This document shows positions 12,165 to 24,947 of a stretch of 38,419 nucleotides of DNA, piece by piece. Both the position numbers and the translations under genes were made by a program. The number at the start of each line of letters is the position of its first letter. The stretch's first letter is position 1. The notes below the pieces were generated by a model that did not search any database, was not told the origin of the DNA, and worked only from the letters and a program-made list of their open reading frames with translations. Origin of the DNA: a virus; the IMG/VR virus record IMGVR_UViG_3300011114_000210, positions 1 to 38,419 of that record; one strand, 5' to 3'.

Positions 12165-13823
12165 CTATTTAGATTTCTCTACCGCGTCAATCCTTTTCCC
12201 TATCCAAGCCATGCACGGAACTGCCATTGAATTACCCAACGCTTTGTAGCGTGGGCCGTCGGGGCATTGATCGGCTGGCTTACCCCTCCAACTAATAAGT
12301 GTATGATTATCTGGGAACCCTTGCAAACGCTCGCACTCGACTGGAGTGAGGCGACGAACAGCCATCCTGTCAGCGGGGTTAATCACTCCTCCTGTGTGAT
12401 TAATGTCCGATGCTGAAGAGGAGAGTGTCTGCGAGGTGCTGTTGATTGTCTTGTTGTAGCAATCAACGGCAACCGCCACCTGATTGTCACCCATATCCTT
12501 CCGTAGGGTAGGGGACATCTCCTTGACGAATCTGCTTTCGTTACCTTCTCTGGATGCAATACCAGGTTCAAAGGCAATTGCCTCTTGCACAAGTGGGACA
12601 TTCCCACCACCCGTTCCGTATCTCGACACACAGCTTGGTGCAACTTCAAGTGGACCAGTTACCCGAGAATCATTGGGGTGATTCTCATAGAGGACAACCT
12701 TAACTTCAGTATCACCAGCCTTCGTATTTGCTTTGAGTGTAGGGCAAACAGATTTCTCGGTCAGCTTTCCAGTTAATCGAAGCTCAGAAGTTTGGAACGC
12801 AATAGCGTGCTTGTCGCCTTTGGTCAGGGTAGGGCAGGGGTCACCTGGCTTACCCACTCCAAGTCCATTGCCCTTTCCGTCTTGCTTGTCTCCGTGCTTG
12901 CCAGAGTGTCGTGTCGCTTGGTCGTGGATTGGGATGGTCTGCGAAATGTAGTGTCCAGATTGAGCGTTTTGCGCTCTTTGTGCAGGTATTCTGCAATCAA
13001 TATCCCCGCAAATTTCAGGAACAAACAAAGAGGCACCGCCCAGAGCGTGCTGATCTTCTAATCCTTGCTTAGATCCAAAAGCTGCATTTAGCGTACTTGC
13101 TATATCTGCTGGCCATTTTTTAGTAATGGCTTCGTGAACTGCCTTAATCTCCATTAAGGCCTCGTCACTACATCCTCCTCGACTTCCCTTGCATTGGGTG
13201 ATTGTTGGACTAACTCCAACGCCTGCTTGAGCATTTGTGGCAACTCCTTGCCTCGCTTCTCGGCTCGGCGCAGGATTCCTGCGCACGCTTTCGGACTCAA
13301 ATAGAACCTTTGCGGCAAGACTCCCTTCTCCAAGATGTGCGACAACGAACACACGTCTGCGTCTTTGGGCCACTCCGAACCATTGAGCGTCCAACACTCG
13401 GTACGCCCACTCATACCCCAACTCCCCCAACGCTCCGAGGAAGGAACCAAAATCTTTTCCTCCGTTAGATGACAAGACACCAGGGACATTTTCCCAGACA
13501 AGCCATCTAGGTTTGAGACGTTCAGCGATTGCAAGGTATGTAAGCATAAGATTTCCTCTGGGGTCTTTGAGTCCCTGCCTAAGTCCTGCGACTGAGAAGG
13601 ATTGGCATGGGGTTCCTCCGACCATAAGGTCAACTGATCCGCTTTGTATATTCCATTGTTCATATTTTGTCATGTCTCCTAGGTTTTGTACTTTTGGCCA
13701 ATGATGCTTCAGCACCGCTGACGGAAATGGTTCTACTTCTGAAAATGCAACTGGCTCCCAACCAATCGGCTCCCACGCCTTGGACGCTGCTTCAATTCCA
13801 GAACAAACAGATAGGTATTTCAT
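12165..13823 (-). CDS. dcm: DNA C5-cytosine methyltransferase (Dcm type)
   Basis: The 552-residue product carries the C5 methyltransferase motifs: LSVCSGIEAASKAW (I), GGTPCQSFSVAG with catalytic Cys73 (IV), WENVPG at 110-115 (VI), QRRRRVF at 153-159 (VIII), and GNSMAVPCMAWIGKRI near the C-terminus (X). Between VIII and IX lies a long, Gly/Ser/Asp-rich variable region of about 260 residues. It contains several CPTL-type segments and probably serves target recognition. It would protect phage DNA from restriction; the target is not predictable by eye. The ATG overlaps the preceding stop (ATGA). A second long frame lies inside the first half (13154-13663). Confidence 0.93.
   Translation of the reverse strand: MKYLSVCSGIEAASKAWEPIGWEPVAFSEVEPFPSAVLKHHWPKVQNLGDMTKYEQWNIQSGSVDLMVGGTPCQSFSVAGLRQGLKDPRGNLMLTYLAIAERLKPRWLVWENVPGVLSSNGGKDFGSFLGALGELGYEWAYRVLDAQWFGVAQRRRRVFVVAHLGEGSLAAKVLFESESVRRNPAPSREARQGVATNAQAGVGVSPTITQCKGSRGGCSDEALMEIKAVHEAITKKWPADIASTLNAAFGSKQGLEDQHALGGASLFVPEICGDIDCRIPAQRAQNAQSGHYISQTIPIHDQATRHSGKHGDKQDGKGNGLGVGKPGDPCPTLTKGDKHAIAFQTSELRLTGKLTEKSVCPTLKANTKAGDTEVKVVLYENHPNDSRVTGPLEVAPSCVSRYGTGGGNVPLVQEAIAFEPGIASREGNESRFVKEMSPTLRKDMGDNQVAVAVDCYNKTINSTSQTLSSSASDINHTGGVINPADRMAVRRLTPVECERLQGFPDNHTLISWRGKPADQCPDGPRYKALGNSMAVPCMAWIGKRIDAVEKSK
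13154..13663 (-). CDS. Candidate overlapping gene inside dcm (alternate frame, 169 aa)
   Basis: This same-strand frame is open for 169 codons inside codons 54-223 of dcm, offset by one base. Its product contains ECWTLNGSEWPKDADVCSLS, ILEKGVLPQRFYLSPKACAG and ILRRAEKRGKELPQML. I associate this with a recurrent phage protein family annotated separately in other genomes, some next to methyltransferase genes. The first part (QLTLWSEEPHANPSQSQDLG) also fits that family as I remember it. The ATG at 13661-13663 has AGGAG about 12 bases upstream, a weak signal. Either both frames are used, or the family is a recurring artefact of the conserved methyltransferase sequence. Confidence 0.4.
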   Translation of the reverse strand: MNNGIYKADQLTLWSEEPHANPSQSQDLGRDSKTPEEILCLHTLQSLNVSNLDGLSGKMSLVSCHLTEEKILVPSSERWGSWGMSGRTECWTLNGSEWPKDADVCSLSHILEKGVLPQRFYLSPKACAGILRRAEKRGKELPQMLKQALELVQQSPNAREVEEDVVTRP

Positions 13824-14169: not shown

Positions 14170-14418
14170 CTATTCTCCTTGTTTGTAATAGGGATTAGGC
14201 ACTGATGGTGCTTGCACCCCGAAACTTGGGTTCTCACATCTGCGACAATCGCGTAGGTCAAAGTCAAGAATCTCACCGTGGTTGAGCATGATCGTAAAAA
14301 TCTTGTTGTGATCCATTCCGTAATCAGTAACCAGAAATGCAAGCCCCTCACCCTTGGGGGTCATCATCCATAGCTCTGGATTGAGTTGTACTACTTCCAC
14401 GCTGGTCCTGTAAACCAC
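14170..14418 (-). CDS. Conserved small phage protein with TDYGxDHN motif, up to 82 aa
   Basis: The frame contains GLAFLVTDYGMDHNKIFTIM followed by LNHGEILDFDLRDCRRCENP. The T-D-Y-G-x-D-H-N core followed by a predicted strand and an acidic loop recurs in small phage proteins, with no known function. Two GTG starts are possible: 14418, overlapping the oxygenase by 28 bases, and 14397, overlapping it by 7 bases. Two cysteines (CRRC) could bind metal. Confidence 0.65.
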   Translation of the reverse strand: MVYRTSVEVVQLNPELWMMTPKGEGLAFLVTDYGMDHNKIFTIMLNHGEILDFDLRDCRRCENPSFGVQAPSVPNPYYKQGE

Positions 14419-14966
14419 GCTACCAATACCCAGCGTGTGCCAAAGATAGGTGCGCGAGCACGATGCTCGATGTAGGATGGAAACCAGCAGCCAGCCCCCT
14501 GCGCTCGTATAAACCTAGAATTCTCCAAGTCAGCCTTGACCTGTAACCCACCGCCCAGGTACTCGCTAGGATCAGATAGGTTGACCACTGCCGTCAGCTT
14601 ACGCACTGGAGCCTCGGAGGTGTAGGTGTCATAGTGCCAGCTAAACTTCTGGAGTGGGCGATAGCGCAGGATCTGCAACTGCTGGATGCCCTGGATGTCG
14701 AATCGCCATACATCGGCATTGATGCTCTCCGTAAGCTCTCGCATAACTTTGTATATCCACTCGTAATGCGTTGCGAATGGAATCCAGCAGGATGAACAGG
14801 TTCTTGTACGTGATACTGTACGTGTCACTCCATCCTTGGCTAGCACAGGCGCACGCTTCATGCCCATGACCTCGGCATCCTGGCGCAGCATGGTGCATTG
14901 CGTAGGCGTGAGGACGTAGCGATCCACGCTGGCGGTTAAAACCTTCTGCTTGAATGCTTCGTTCAT
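14391..14966 (-). CDS. 2-oxoglutarate/Fe(II)-dependent oxygenase (prolyl 4-hydroxylase type)
   Basis: The 191-residue product has the double-stranded beta-helix signature: WHYDTY supplies H111 and D113, YIEHRARAP supplies the second iron-binding His (168), and FGTRWVLVAWF supplies the arginine that binds 2-oxoglutarate (178). LQILRYRPLQKFSWHYDT and LSDPSEYLGGGLQV are typical of P4Hc/PKHD proteins. It would hydroxylate a protein or small substrate using oxygen and 2-oxoglutarate, so replication probably occurs in an oxic host. The substrate is unknown; a virion or host translation protein is plausible. The start overlaps the preceding stop (ATGA). Confidence 0.85.
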   Translation of the reverse strand: MNEAFKQKVLTASVDRYVLTPTQCTMLRQDAEVMGMKRAPVLAKDGVTRTVSRTRTCSSCWIPFATHYEWIYKVMRELTESINADVWRFDIQGIQQLQILRYRPLQKFSWHYDTYTSEAPVRKLTAVVNLSDPSEYLGGGLQVKADLENSRFIRAQGAGCWFPSYIEHRARAPIFGTRWVLVAWFTGPAWK

Positions 14967-20927: not shown

Positions 20928-23900
20928 TTACTCTCCTTGTTGCATCATAAGCTCTCGGCCTATGTCTTGACGCTTTTGCATTTCTTCTGGAGATAGCTCG
21001 CGGCGCATCTGTTTGGAAAGAGATTTGCTTATCCTGTAGTCCCTATACCTATTGTTTGCTATTGCAGAGGCATTGTCACCGCTTAACCCGCCAACACGCA
21101 TAGCTGATATTGCTTCTGATCGGCTAAGACCAAGCAACATAGAGGCGTGAAAATCCTTATTAGCTTCATCAAACATAACCTTGCGCCGATTCTCCATCTT
21201 TGAGAATTGCTCACGAATCTTTGATTCTGGGACATTTCCAACCGCGCCGTAAGTCTCTGTGAATATCCGCCCAACATCTGTCATGTTTGTATTGAACCTA
21301 GATGCCTTGGATTCTAGTGCCTTGGATATATTTAGAGACTGAGGACGGATTCCGAATAATGCAGATAACTCTTCTGATGGCTTGAATACGCGACCATATT
21401 TAGATACGGATGTGTCTGGTTGTCCTGTTAAGGCGTAGAAAATCCTACGCATTTGAGAAACTGTTGCAGGCTCATTCTGACGCTCCAAGTAGCTGATGGT
21501 ATCTATTACTTGATCAACATTACTATCTTGCGGATTTCGGATTGACCTACCCTGTGGTGTTTTGCCATAGATTGCAGAAGCTATTGAATTCGCAAGAATG
21601 CTCGGACCAATATAAGAATCAAGAAATTCATTTATTCCAGATAGTATTGAATCCTCTGGATCTCTTCCAGATGCAACTGCCTGTATTGGTCCACGCATAA
21701 CTTCGTATGGATCGGTATATGAAATATCAACATATCCAACGCTTTTACCATCTGAACCTGTTGGCATTAGCGTTGCATTCTTTTGGTACGGAGCAACAAA
21801 ACGTCTCAAGGCTTCCATCTTTCTTCCATTAAAATCAGTTGCCCACATACCAAGTTTAGCAACACCTATTGCAGCACCCAATGCAATTAAAACTCCAATC
21901 AATCTTGTAAGACCATATCTACGCATACCAGGGGTTTTAATATCTTCTGCCGCATATCTAATTGTGTTTGGAATAACCCTCAACATTTCAGATGGCCAAG
22001 ATATAAAGTTACCAAATAGAGGTTGAAGTCTAAGTGCTTTGATAAACCTTGGAACGCGTGAATAAGTTGGCCTTGTATTCTTCACACGCTCGGCTGCAAT
22101 AACCTCTGCCTCTTGGCGTGAAATCTTTCTGCCATCCATCAATTGCTTTGTTTCATTCTCCCAGGCCATAAGCTTGAATAAATTATCACCAGCGCGGTAT
22201 GTTTTATTTAGGGCATCAAGACCTTTCTTCGCAAGTCCACTACCCTTTCCAGCCATTTGTTCTGCAAAATCAATTGTCGATCCTTTGTACTGCTGTGCAT
22301 CCTTGAGCATCTGGGTAAACTCATTGAGAACAGTATTGTCGTAAATACCAAGTTGAGTTGCCCTAGTCAGATAGGCTCGGCCTTCCTTGGTATCCATGCC
22401 TGGAACACCAAACTCAGCTAAGACTGTTTTAATTGGTTTTAGGCTTCCACCAAACGCTATGTTTCCGTTTGCAACCTCAATCAATACATTGGACATTGGA
22501 TTTCTAAATTGAGCCTGGATGCTTCCAACTGTCTTGCCCCACTTCACCCAGGCATTAGCCATCGAATAAAGTTGATACATTGTTCCACCCTTATGCATCA
22601 TCTCAAAATTCTCAATAGCATCGACAAGTTCTGGTTCTGCATAAAGACCATTAAGAGGCGAGCGTGTATCTGATCCATCAGCCGCGATCTGTTTAACAGC
22701 AGTTCCAGTTGGCTTGTCAAAAAATAACTTGTTTGCAATTCCAAAATTCTTTAATTCATTTAACTGCTTTTGGGACTGCAAAAGGTTAATCATCTTGCTT
22801 GCTGACCTGGCGTAATTGATTACTGGATCAGAGTACTCGCCCATTAAATATCGGATCTGTCCTGGAATGTCTTGCCTTGCCTTTGTTATGCCCAACTTTT
22901 TTCCAATCCCAGATACCTGTATGAGTGATTCCATCGGCTTGTCACGCCCTTGCTCAACTAACTCACGAATCCTTCCTTGCACTTGGTCTTCGGTAATGGC
23001 TGGATCTATTGACTTTAACTGATCTCGGACAAATTTCTCAGCAACAGAATATGCGGCAGGATCTCTTTTTCTTAGCAAATCAACACTGAATTTAGGATTA
23101 TCAAACTTCTCATACGAGCGAGTTAGGTACTCACCCTTACGCTCTCTGATAACATCAGCTTTGCTTTTTCCAGATGCACCAACCTCCTGCGAAAATGTGC
23201 CTTCTTGAATAAGACCTTCAGACAAGTTATCCAACTGCCTACGCATTTGATTTGCTATTGGCTGGATGGATTCTGGAAGCGTAGTCACATCGGTAGCACC
23301 GCGCAGGAATTGGTCTAGCTGACCAGATTGCTCTGGCGTAAGCCTAGGCTTGCCATTCAAAATCCTTGCTTCTTTAGCCAAGTCTTTGAGCGTAAAATCA
23401 ATCTGCTTGAGCATCGCCTGCGTGCGCGATCCCTTGGATTCCATAATGTCAAACATCTCTTTAGGAAGATTGCCTTCAGTAGTAAGCCACTTCTTTGCTA
23501 CCTTGGCCGCGCCTTCTTGCACATCGGACACGATGAATCCAGCCTCACCAGCCTTGCCACCCATAGGGCGAGGGATGGTTGGTTTTGAGACAGTAGGGGT
23601 CTCTACTGGTGCAACCTCACCTTCCGCTGGCAATGCCAACCTCTCCGTACTAGGCAACTGCGTCCTAGGCGTAACAATCGGACCTTCGCGCACAATCTCG
23701 CCCTGCATCCCCCTTGTGTCTGGAGTAATCGCCTCACGATTGATGCCTTGTGATTCAATTGTAAATACGCCTGTCCTTGGTACTGGATCGTTTAGATCGA
23801 CCAAGCTTTCCTGCATTGGCGTGATAATTCCACGCCGTTGCATTTCTGCTGTATCGGCTTGTGTTCCGCGCACGTTCCCGCGCACGCCTGACTCGGCTAA

Positions 23901-24947
23901 TTCTACTGGAGGTACTGGTTGTACTGGTGGTAGCTCAGCAGTTGGCATTTGTTGCATCGGTTGCTTTTTGGGCAATGTAAGCTCAGTCTTTTCAAACACT
24001 GGCCTGCCAGCTAAATCAACTGTTGTTCGTTTTGCCGATTCAACACCCTTGGCTCCAGTTTTCTGTGCTTCAGCAAGTATTCCATTCCAATCGCGGTATT
24101 CAGCTTCGGTAGCCTTTCCAGCCTTAACTCTTTCATTCAGCGAAATGGCTTGTTCCCTGTTATATCCCTTGACCCTGCTTCCGCTGCCTAGACCAGCAAA
24201 TAACGCACCAAACAAAGCATCTTCTGCAATTGTACCAGGGCTAACTTGTCCACCAATAATCGCCCTAACTCCAGTACCAACTCCAGCACCAATCCCAGCA
24301 GAAACTCCTAGTGCTTTAGCCATTTCCTCGGCTCCACGTTTTGCACCTAGTTCAGCAAATAAGGTTTTTCCAGCTTGGACAAGTTGTGCGCCACCAACTG
24401 TTCCAGCAACAACAGCAGGAGCATATTCACCAGCAGTAGCATAACCAGGTGCAAACTCTCTTGACCTAGCAACATTAGGCGTAAATTTCTGTAGTCCAGA
24501 TTCAGCCAATTGACCTCCAGCTATTGCGCCACCAACTCCGCCAGCAATAGCTCCTACTGGCCCACCAATCAATCCACCCCCAAGGCCACCAGCAATACCA
24601 CCCAAAAGCTGCGATGACCCCTTGACCAATCCAGCAGCACCAGCAGCTATCTTTACATCTGTTGGAACATCAACTGCCTCTTTATTTACAAAATCATCTA
24701 TTTGCGCCCCCTGTTCTGGCGTATAGCTCTGAAGGGATGCGGCGTATTGTTTTGTTTCAGCCCCCCATTGGCGGGCAAGATTAACTTGCTCTGGATAATT
24801 AAGAGTCTTGTAGTCCTCGGAATTCTTAATTTCACTCCACGCTGGAGGTTCTTCTTGTCTTGGGGCTGGTTGTGCCTCAATTGGCATTCCAGCTAGTTCC
24901 CTTATCTTGTTGGCTGAAGATAGCTCCTGTATTGGGGCTTCAGCCAT
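20928..24947 (-). CDS. Giant internal virion / DNA-ejection protein, 1339 aa
   Basis: This is the longest gene. Residues 100-150 are a glycine-zipper-like hydrophobic stretch (LLGGIAGGLGGGLIGGPVGA). A second such stretch is near 210-260, and a hydrophobic segment (LIGVLIALGAAIGVAKLGMW) lies in the C-terminal third. The rest is helical and charged. Size, place at the end of the tail cluster and membrane-active segments match T7 gp16-type ejection proteins that build a channel across the cell envelope. Motifs AENETKQ-like and PLFGNFISWPSEMLRVIPNT recur, as I recall, in large podovirus virion proteins. No transglycosylase motif is evident; the lysozyme is a separate gene. Confidence 0.72.
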   Translation of the reverse strand: MAEAPIQELSSANKIRELAGMPIEAQPAPRQEEPPAWSEIKNSEDYKTLNYPEQVNLARQWGAETKQYAASLQSYTPEQGAQIDDFVNKEAVDVPTDVKIAAGAAGLVKGSSQLLGGIAGGLGGGLIGGPVGAIAGGVGGAIAGGQLAESGLQKFTPNVARSREFAPGYATAGEYAPAVVAGTVGGAQLVQAGKTLFAELGAKRGAEEMAKALGVSAGIGAGVGTGVRAIIGGQVSPGTIAEDALFGALFAGLGSGSRVKGYNREQAISLNERVKAGKATEAEYRDWNGILAEAQKTGAKGVESAKRTTVDLAGRPVFEKTELTLPKKQPMQQMPTAELPPVQPVPPVELAESGVRGNVRGTQADTAEMQRRGIITPMQESLVDLNDPVPRTGVFTIESQGINREAITPDTRGMQGEIVREGPIVTPRTQLPSTERLALPAEGEVAPVETPTVSKPTIPRPMGGKAGEAGFIVSDVQEGAAKVAKKWLTTEGNLPKEMFDIMESKGSRTQAMLKQIDFTLKDLAKEARILNGKPRLTPEQSGQLDQFLRGATDVTTLPESIQPIANQMRRQLDNLSEGLIQEGTFSQEVGASGKSKADVIRERKGEYLTRSYEKFDNPKFSVDLLRKRDPAAYSVAEKFVRDQLKSIDPAITEDQVQGRIRELVEQGRDKPMESLIQVSGIGKKLGITKARQDIPGQIRYLMGEYSDPVINYARSASKMINLLQSQKQLNELKNFGIANKLFFDKPTGTAVKQIAADGSDTRSPLNGLYAEPELVDAIENFEMMHKGGTMYQLYSMANAWVKWGKTVGSIQAQFRNPMSNVLIEVANGNIAFGGSLKPIKTVLAEFGVPGMDTKEGRAYLTRATQLGIYDNTVLNEFTQMLKDAQQYKGSTIDFAEQMAGKGSGLAKKGLDALNKTYRAGDNLFKLMAWENETKQLMDGRKISRQEAEVIAAERVKNTRPTYSRVPRFIKALRLQPLFGNFISWPSEMLRVIPNTIRYAAEDIKTPGMRRYGLTRLIGVLIALGAAIGVAKLGMWATDFNGRKMEALRRFVAPYQKNATLMPTGSDGKSVGYVDISYTDPYEVMRGPIQAVASGRDPEDSILSGINEFLDSYIGPSILANSIASAIYGKTPQGRSIRNPQDSNVDQVIDTISYLERQNEPATVSQMRRIFYALTGQPDTSVSKYGRVFKPSEELSALFGIRPQSLNISKALESKASRFNTNMTDVGRIFTETYGAVGNVPESKIREQFSKMENRRKVMFDEANKDFHASMLLGLSRSEAISAMRVGGLSGDNASAIANNRYRDYRISKSLSKQMRRELSPEEMQKRQDIGRELMMQQGE

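Follow-up and report, generated by a model that had tools for sequence, protein, structure and literature searches.

The DNA analysed here (the window) is a virus record of 38,419 bases, taken over its whole length. It carries a gene for a phage C5-cytosine DNA methyltransferase, dcm, and, enclosed within it, a shorter open reading frame (ORF) in the +1 frame (Table 1). The dcm product has the PF00145 fold and keeps motifs IV, VI, VIII, IX and X in its sequence; M.HaeIII and M.HhaI align with its residues 2-163, i.e., through motif VIII, and again in the motif IX-X region. The original prediction claimed that a shifted frame of dcm encodes a second gene of 169 codons, and this was borne out: the frame is present, starts with an ATG, lies entirely within the dcm ORF and is read from the same strand. 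The two signatures that had been named, CSLSHILE and YLSPKACAGILRRA, were both found in the embedded protein.

Table 1. Positions of dcm, the embedded gene and their features in the window
Feature	Position	Strand	Remarks
dcm, phage C5-cytosine DNA methyltransferase	12165..13823	-	552 aa; PF00145 E 4.2e-52; phrog_116 E 2.7e-94
Embedded gene, +1 frame of dcm	13154..13663	-	169 codons, opposite dcm codons 54-223
Start codon of embedded gene, ATG	13661..13663	-	ATG in 64/65 homologues starting at the same dcm codon
Shine-Dalgarno-like AGGAG	13676..13680	-	12 nt upstream of embedded ATG
+1-frame TGA stop before embedded start	13670..13672	-	Formed by dcm Met51-Thr52
Helical C-terminal part of embedded protein, residues 105-166	13166..13351	-	Predicted by AlphaFold2
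Best-conserved block of embedded protein, SLSxxLE...LSxxACxGILRRAxxRGKxLPxxLxxAL	13217..13345	-	
dcm motif IV PCQ, catalytic Cys73	13602..13610	-	Within overlap; motif IV pattern in 236/245 homologues
dcm motif VI ENV	13485..13493	-	Within overlap; 245/245 homologues
dcm motif VIII QRRRR	13353..13367	-	Within overlap; 244/245 homologues
dcm motif IX RRLTPVECERLQGFP	12312..12356	-	Outside overlap; aligned to M.HaeIII and M.HhaI

Elsewhere in the window, a 2OG-Fe(II) oxygenase (14391-14966, minus strand; phrog_61, E 2e-22) lies closely upstream of dcm and looks by eye more prolyl-hydroxylase-like than TET-like, and a 364-codon ORF (23350-24444, plus strand) runs antisense to a 1339-aa virion structural ORF (20928-24947).

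The +1 frame is open throughout the dcm homologues

The +1 frame was open in all 245 non-redundant dcm homologues, with runs of 135-298 codons (median 165); the median run of the +2 frame in the same homologues was 57 codons. In most homologues the +1 frame becomes open at dcm codon 52. When synonymous codons were permuted within each gene (400 shuffles, 111 distinct homologues), the window's dcm yielded a longest +1 ORF of 74 codons on average, and 171 codons were attained in one shuffle of the 400. Mean longest +1 runs of the shuffled homologues were mostly 50-125 codons, as compared with 135-229 observed. For about half of the 111 homologues the observed run was never attained in 400 shuffles, and p was small for the others, reaching 0.1-0.31 in a minority, mostly those whose shuffled mean was already long.

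This openness is not an effect of ascertainment, since the loci recruited by a dcm query were all open: the minimum +1 run was 153 codons among 37 non-redundant loci (L104-L159), and the streptococcal dcms had runs of 141-191 codons. The PF00145 enzymes encoded in genomes with such loci served as a control. Of these enzymes, the ones with a clear match to the embedded protein had +1 runs of 158-240 codons, whereas the ones without a match had runs of 43-115 codons, except for L353 (299 codons), whose +2 frame is open too; L357, which matches the embedded protein only weakly, had a run of 91 codons. Frequent stops among relatives, which had been named as evidence against a second gene, were nearly absent: across 328 loci (some contigs counted twice), an early stop fell in the embedded frame in one contig only, and a stop fell in dcm in two.

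The embedded frame is conserved as a protein-coding sequence

Since each embedded codon consists of dcm positions 2 and 3 and the first position of the next dcm codon, the wobble position of the embedded frame is dcm position 1. Changes were counted by parsimony, on a tree for which only the dcm columns beyond the overlap were used. In dcm codons 181-192, changes per sequence were 0.264, 0.073 and 0.060 at positions 1, 2 and 3, so that the pattern was inverted, third positions changing least and first positions (the +1 wobble) most, while the motif regions of dcm outside the overlap gave third/first ratios of roughly 2.3-4.5. Likewise, codons 166-192 accumulated 1252, 476 and 579 changes at the three positions, compared with 1189, 853 and 3744 in codons 1-50. 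Inverted counts of this kind could not be produced by a gene that encodes dcm only. In the streptococcal phages, third-position change dropped from 9-16 to ~2-8 per codon between codons ~51 and ~180 and then recovered, and in the P1 dmt clade changes were 84/34/33 in its codons 226-240 versus 28/17/117 in codons 1-15. The depression of synonymous change that the original prediction anticipated was thus strong, even to the point of inversion.

We further resampled synonymous codons with the dcm protein held fixed (60 resamplings, 240 pairs). Identity of the +1 protein averaged 73% across dcm codons 147-204, against 29% expected from the dcm constraint alone, and was higher than in all 60 resamplings in 240 of 240 pairs; the identity of dcm itself over this stretch, 63%, was below that of the +1 protein. 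In the N-terminal part (dcm codons 55-146) identity was 50% versus 30% expected, an excess that was weak or missing in the P1-like and Ruminococcus-phage lineages. The claim that catalytic motifs IV-VIII are dual-coded holds in so far as they lie inside the overlap and are constrained there, but the +1 constraint across them is weaker than that at codons 158-205, after motif VIII, where it is strongest. Taken together, codon-position rates and excess +1 identity demonstrate, at the level of sequence comparison, strong purifying selection that is specific to the second frame and acts on it as protein-coding sequence, in phages of many phyla.

The embedded gene has its own start and ribosome-binding site

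Two embedded starts dominate, at dcm codons 53 and 58. The codon-58 type has AAGGAG 7-8 nt upstream, and there dcm encodes Lys by AAG in 48 of 48 cases and Glu by GAG in 51 of 63, compared with ~50% each elsewhere in the same genes. For the window's type, in the 65 homologues starting at that codon, dcm Gly at the Shine-Dalgarno (SD) site is GGA in 55 of 56 (31% elsewhere) and dcm Leu is CTA or TTA in 49 of 51 (29% elsewhere). The spacing between AGGAG and ATG in the window's clade, 12 nt, exceeds the usual. A +1 stop sits just before the start, which disfavours a frameshifted fusion or an extension of the +1 frame from upstream. The retained start and the codon bias at the SD site establish, as read from aligned genes, a conserved ribosome-binding site and start codon belonging to the embedded gene.

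Order and conservation alternate between the two proteins

We modelled both proteins with AlphaFold2, using 87 sequences for the embedded protein and 37 for dcm. The embedded protein was predicted to be disordered at its N-terminus, with confident helices confined to residues ~107 to 166 and a pLDDT of about 86-91 at residues 121-150. In dcm, residues 1-178 were modelled confidently save for 74-87, and residues 180-218 appeared unfolded; dcm codons 177-220 encode embedded residues 124-166. The models thus suggest that the ordered part of each protein tends to face the flexible part of the other. Per-residue conservation was 0.90 for dcm and 0.65 for the embedded protein at dcm codons 110-124, and 0.52 and 0.80, respectively, at codons 185-199, a crossover that coincides with the switch between order and disorder.

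The embedded ORF is widespread and accompanies dcm

The embedded ORF was found in phages or prophages of Proteobacteria, Firmicutes, Actinobacteria, Acidobacteria, Cyanobacteria, Verrucomicrobia and Planctomycetes, as well as in P1 Dmt and in mycobacteriophages. All 154 matches from scans of distant viruses and genomes overlap dcm in the same +1 relation. The original prediction had looked to standalone homologues away from dcm, and here it found no support: a search of viral contigs, species genomes, phage and plasmid records and 399 genomes of one phylum yielded no free-standing homologue, every match examined lying in the +1 frame of dcm. The nearest approach to independence was that of the truncated ORFs of omegaviruses. 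One candidate for a free gene, L449, was rejected, being a short piece of the C-terminal end with matches in both frames. The original prediction also spoke of separately annotated phage proteins with this signature; the ones checked (MM1 orf14, P0092_45 and Thibault gp104) are the overlapping ORF itself, listed beside dcm.

Individual sequences depart from the common arrangement. Two single metagenomic sequences, L019 and L200, have a nonsense codon in dcm and an intact embedded ORF, reflecting either a real state or a sequence error. In L178 (E. coli plasmid CP088431.1), a P1-like dcm is fused to the embedded frame via an indel just after motif VIII; this fusion may be natural or erroneous.

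P1 Dmt is a bifunctional Dam-Dcm protein, and its Dcm part holds the same +1 ORF, open for ~163 codons and with the same conserved block, though the ORF starts near dcm-domain codon 97-102 and accordingly has a shorter N-terminus. It is left unannotated in the P1 record. The apparent absence of the ORF from nine P1-like sequences was rejected: an intein lies upstream, and the ORF is intact wherever readable. In the P1-like viral contigs L508-L532, the Dcm part of Dmt carries an intein-like insert of ~341 aa (CFTAGHMVLCKNG...GAVVHN/C), which falls precisely on the catalytic Pro-Cys of motif IV, with the embedded ORF lying downstream of it.

In the omegaviruses, a group of mycobacteriophages, dcm is split or frameshifted ahead of motif IX. 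Motif VIII is directly followed by an HNH endonuclease ORF in KashFlow, HokkenD and Thibault, with the result that the embedded N-terminus is missing; Thibault gp104 (81 aa) is the surviving C-terminal domain of the embedded protein. The dcm copies with the HNH insert lie at L454:1324-3208, in L455 and at L456:1539-3340, and in KashFlow and HokkenD the dcm frame is open right through the HNH ORF. Between KashFlow and Thibault, the embedded C-terminal region differs at 17 nt, 12 of them at the +1 wobble, giving 2 changes in the embedded protein and 14 in the dcm frame. Though the numbers are small, the persistence of the C-terminal domain is a hint of a role that continues once the overlapping dcm is no longer intact. 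Against this, the motif I-VIII and IX-X pieces of the omegavirus dcm have kept their frames open and might work together as a split enzyme.

Discussion

We consider it very probable, on the grounds of sequence, that the catalytic half of this orphan phage C5-methyltransferase carries a genuine same-strand overlapping gene, dual-coding and with internal initiation. Ribosomes would initiate internally on the dcm mRNA at the embedded SD and start, giving a product of ~140-170 aa whose N-terminal region is flexible and whose C-terminal domain is helical. The methyltransferase's rigid catalytic core would share its DNA with the disordered part of this product, and the flexible linker that joins motif VIII to the target-recognition region would share its DNA with the helical domain; the two products would tolerate the overlap because constraint is divided between them.

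Other explanations of the open frame fare poorly. Conservation of the +1 frame might be a translation artefact that follows from dcm motifs and a stop-avoiding codon bias, and motif VIII by itself does give a similar +1 peptide, and the open frame of a minority of high-GC homologues is non-significant by shuffling (p up to 0.31). However, the inverted codon-position pattern with its +1 wobble periodicity contradicts this, the +1 identity is more than twice the resampling expectation and above that of dcm, and other C5 methyltransferases in the same genomes lack the embedded ORF, so that we regard an artefact as highly improbable. Suppressed third positions, taken alone, would fit any nucleotide-level constraint, such as an RNA structure or a DNA site; yet the constraint has a three-base periodicity in the +1 frame, leaves the wobble free and, in different clades, begins and ends where the ORF does, making a non-coding element scarcely credible. 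Expression of the +1 sequence by frameshifting, as an extension of the dcm N-terminus and not as a separate protein, is also very unlikely: the frame does continue from dcm, and the L178 plasmid offers a fusion through an indel, but SD and start are conserved, a +1 stop lies upstream near dcm codon 52 in most homologues, and a casual, non-systematic look revealed no conserved slippery site.

What the embedded protein does is a matter of more evenly balanced readings. Searches of Pfam, NCBIfam and PADLOC, and of PDB by sequence, PDB by fold and BFVD by fold, gave no functional lead; the best BFVD match, G1FGG9, is itself the embedded protein, in the truncated form that omegaviruses have. Since one gene has hardly ever been found without the other, we tentatively propose that the small protein may be an accessory of the methyltransferase encoded on the shared mRNA, either working alongside it or acting upon it, bearing in mind that overlap alone would yield such co-occurrence. 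Alternatively, it may be a real protein independent of the methyltransferase, e.g., an early anti-defence or host-takeover protein that originated inside dcm, a possibility that we hold about equally likely, with the accessory role as first choice. The omegaviruses speak for independence, in that their dcm is broken while the embedded C-terminal domain is kept and changes mostly at the +1 wobble, as do the dcm stops of L019 and L200 and the frequent location of the dcm loci examined here among recombination or replication genes. On the other hand, apart from the omegaviruses the two genes were never found separately, the open pieces of the omegavirus dcm may still make an enzyme, and L019 and L200 are one metagenomic sequence each. 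Somewhat more speculatively, the embedded gene could represent an ancient overprinted family, present wherever this orphan C5-methyltransferase clade occurs (in P1 and in streptococcal, lactococcal, mycobacterial, cyanobacterial and proteobacterial phages), with a phage function that survives breakage of the methyltransferase, something at which the omegaviruses hint.

Whether as an accessory or otherwise, the embedded gene bears on several matters. Long same-strand overlaps are seldom proven outside small viruses, and this one embeds ~150 codons across many host phyla. The enzyme family that hosts it is among the best known, and phage P1 offers a system for testing the overlap. Annotation would gain a family of phage proteins that pipelines discard because they overlap another gene, or wrongly call DNA methyltransferase, and the overlap implies that phage dcm sequence just past motif VIII is shaped by another protein. 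Recoded or engineered phage methyltransferase genes may silently lose a second gene.

Comparison with known systems

The overlap has precedents in streptococcal elements, which contain a homologous +1 ORF inside dcm. In phages of the S. thermophilus 5093 group the total overlap of two ORFs was termed striking (PMC5601072), and a passage of the same paper refers it to MM1 orf13/orf14 and Tn5252, citing Obregon 2003 and Sampath & Vijayakumar 1998. The streptococcal versions differ from the window's in ending shortly past KYFLS, without the GILRRA...LPxxLxxAL helical block. In the open-licence literature we found no published report of selection analysis, RBS analysis, function or distribution beyond streptococci. 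The overlap itself was already noted in streptococcal phages and Tn5252.

Existing labels cast the embedded protein as a methyltransferase. In the MM1 record, orf14 is called a C5 methyltransferase beta subunit; P0092_45, an ORF of S. thermophilus phage P0092, matches phrog_16143 at 2.3e-86, the window's embedded ORF matches it at E 1.4e-14, and so do 81 of the 87 aligned members. The phrog_16143 label "DNA methyltransferase" would misfit the embedded protein and suit the overlapping ORF, since the embedded frame has neither a methyltransferase motif nor a Pfam match in its sequence. M.AquI and M.EcoHK31I are two-subunit C5-methyltransferases whose small subunit bears motif IX or IX-X (PMC3404938). 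They resemble the present pair in that a C5-methyltransferase is accompanied by a second small polypeptide, but we rejected the embedded protein as a small subunit of this type because motifs IX and X sit in dcm and none is found in the embedded ORF.

In its layout, the pair resembles Rz/Rz1 of phage lambda, where a gene is likewise embedded on the same strand in a different frame and one message gives two products. Rz1 partners Rz in lysis. The proteins themselves are unrelated, however, and a partnership of the embedded protein with dcm is putative. Embedded genes of the Rz/Rz1 kind are, according to a general statement in PMC11445585, overlooked by gene callers.
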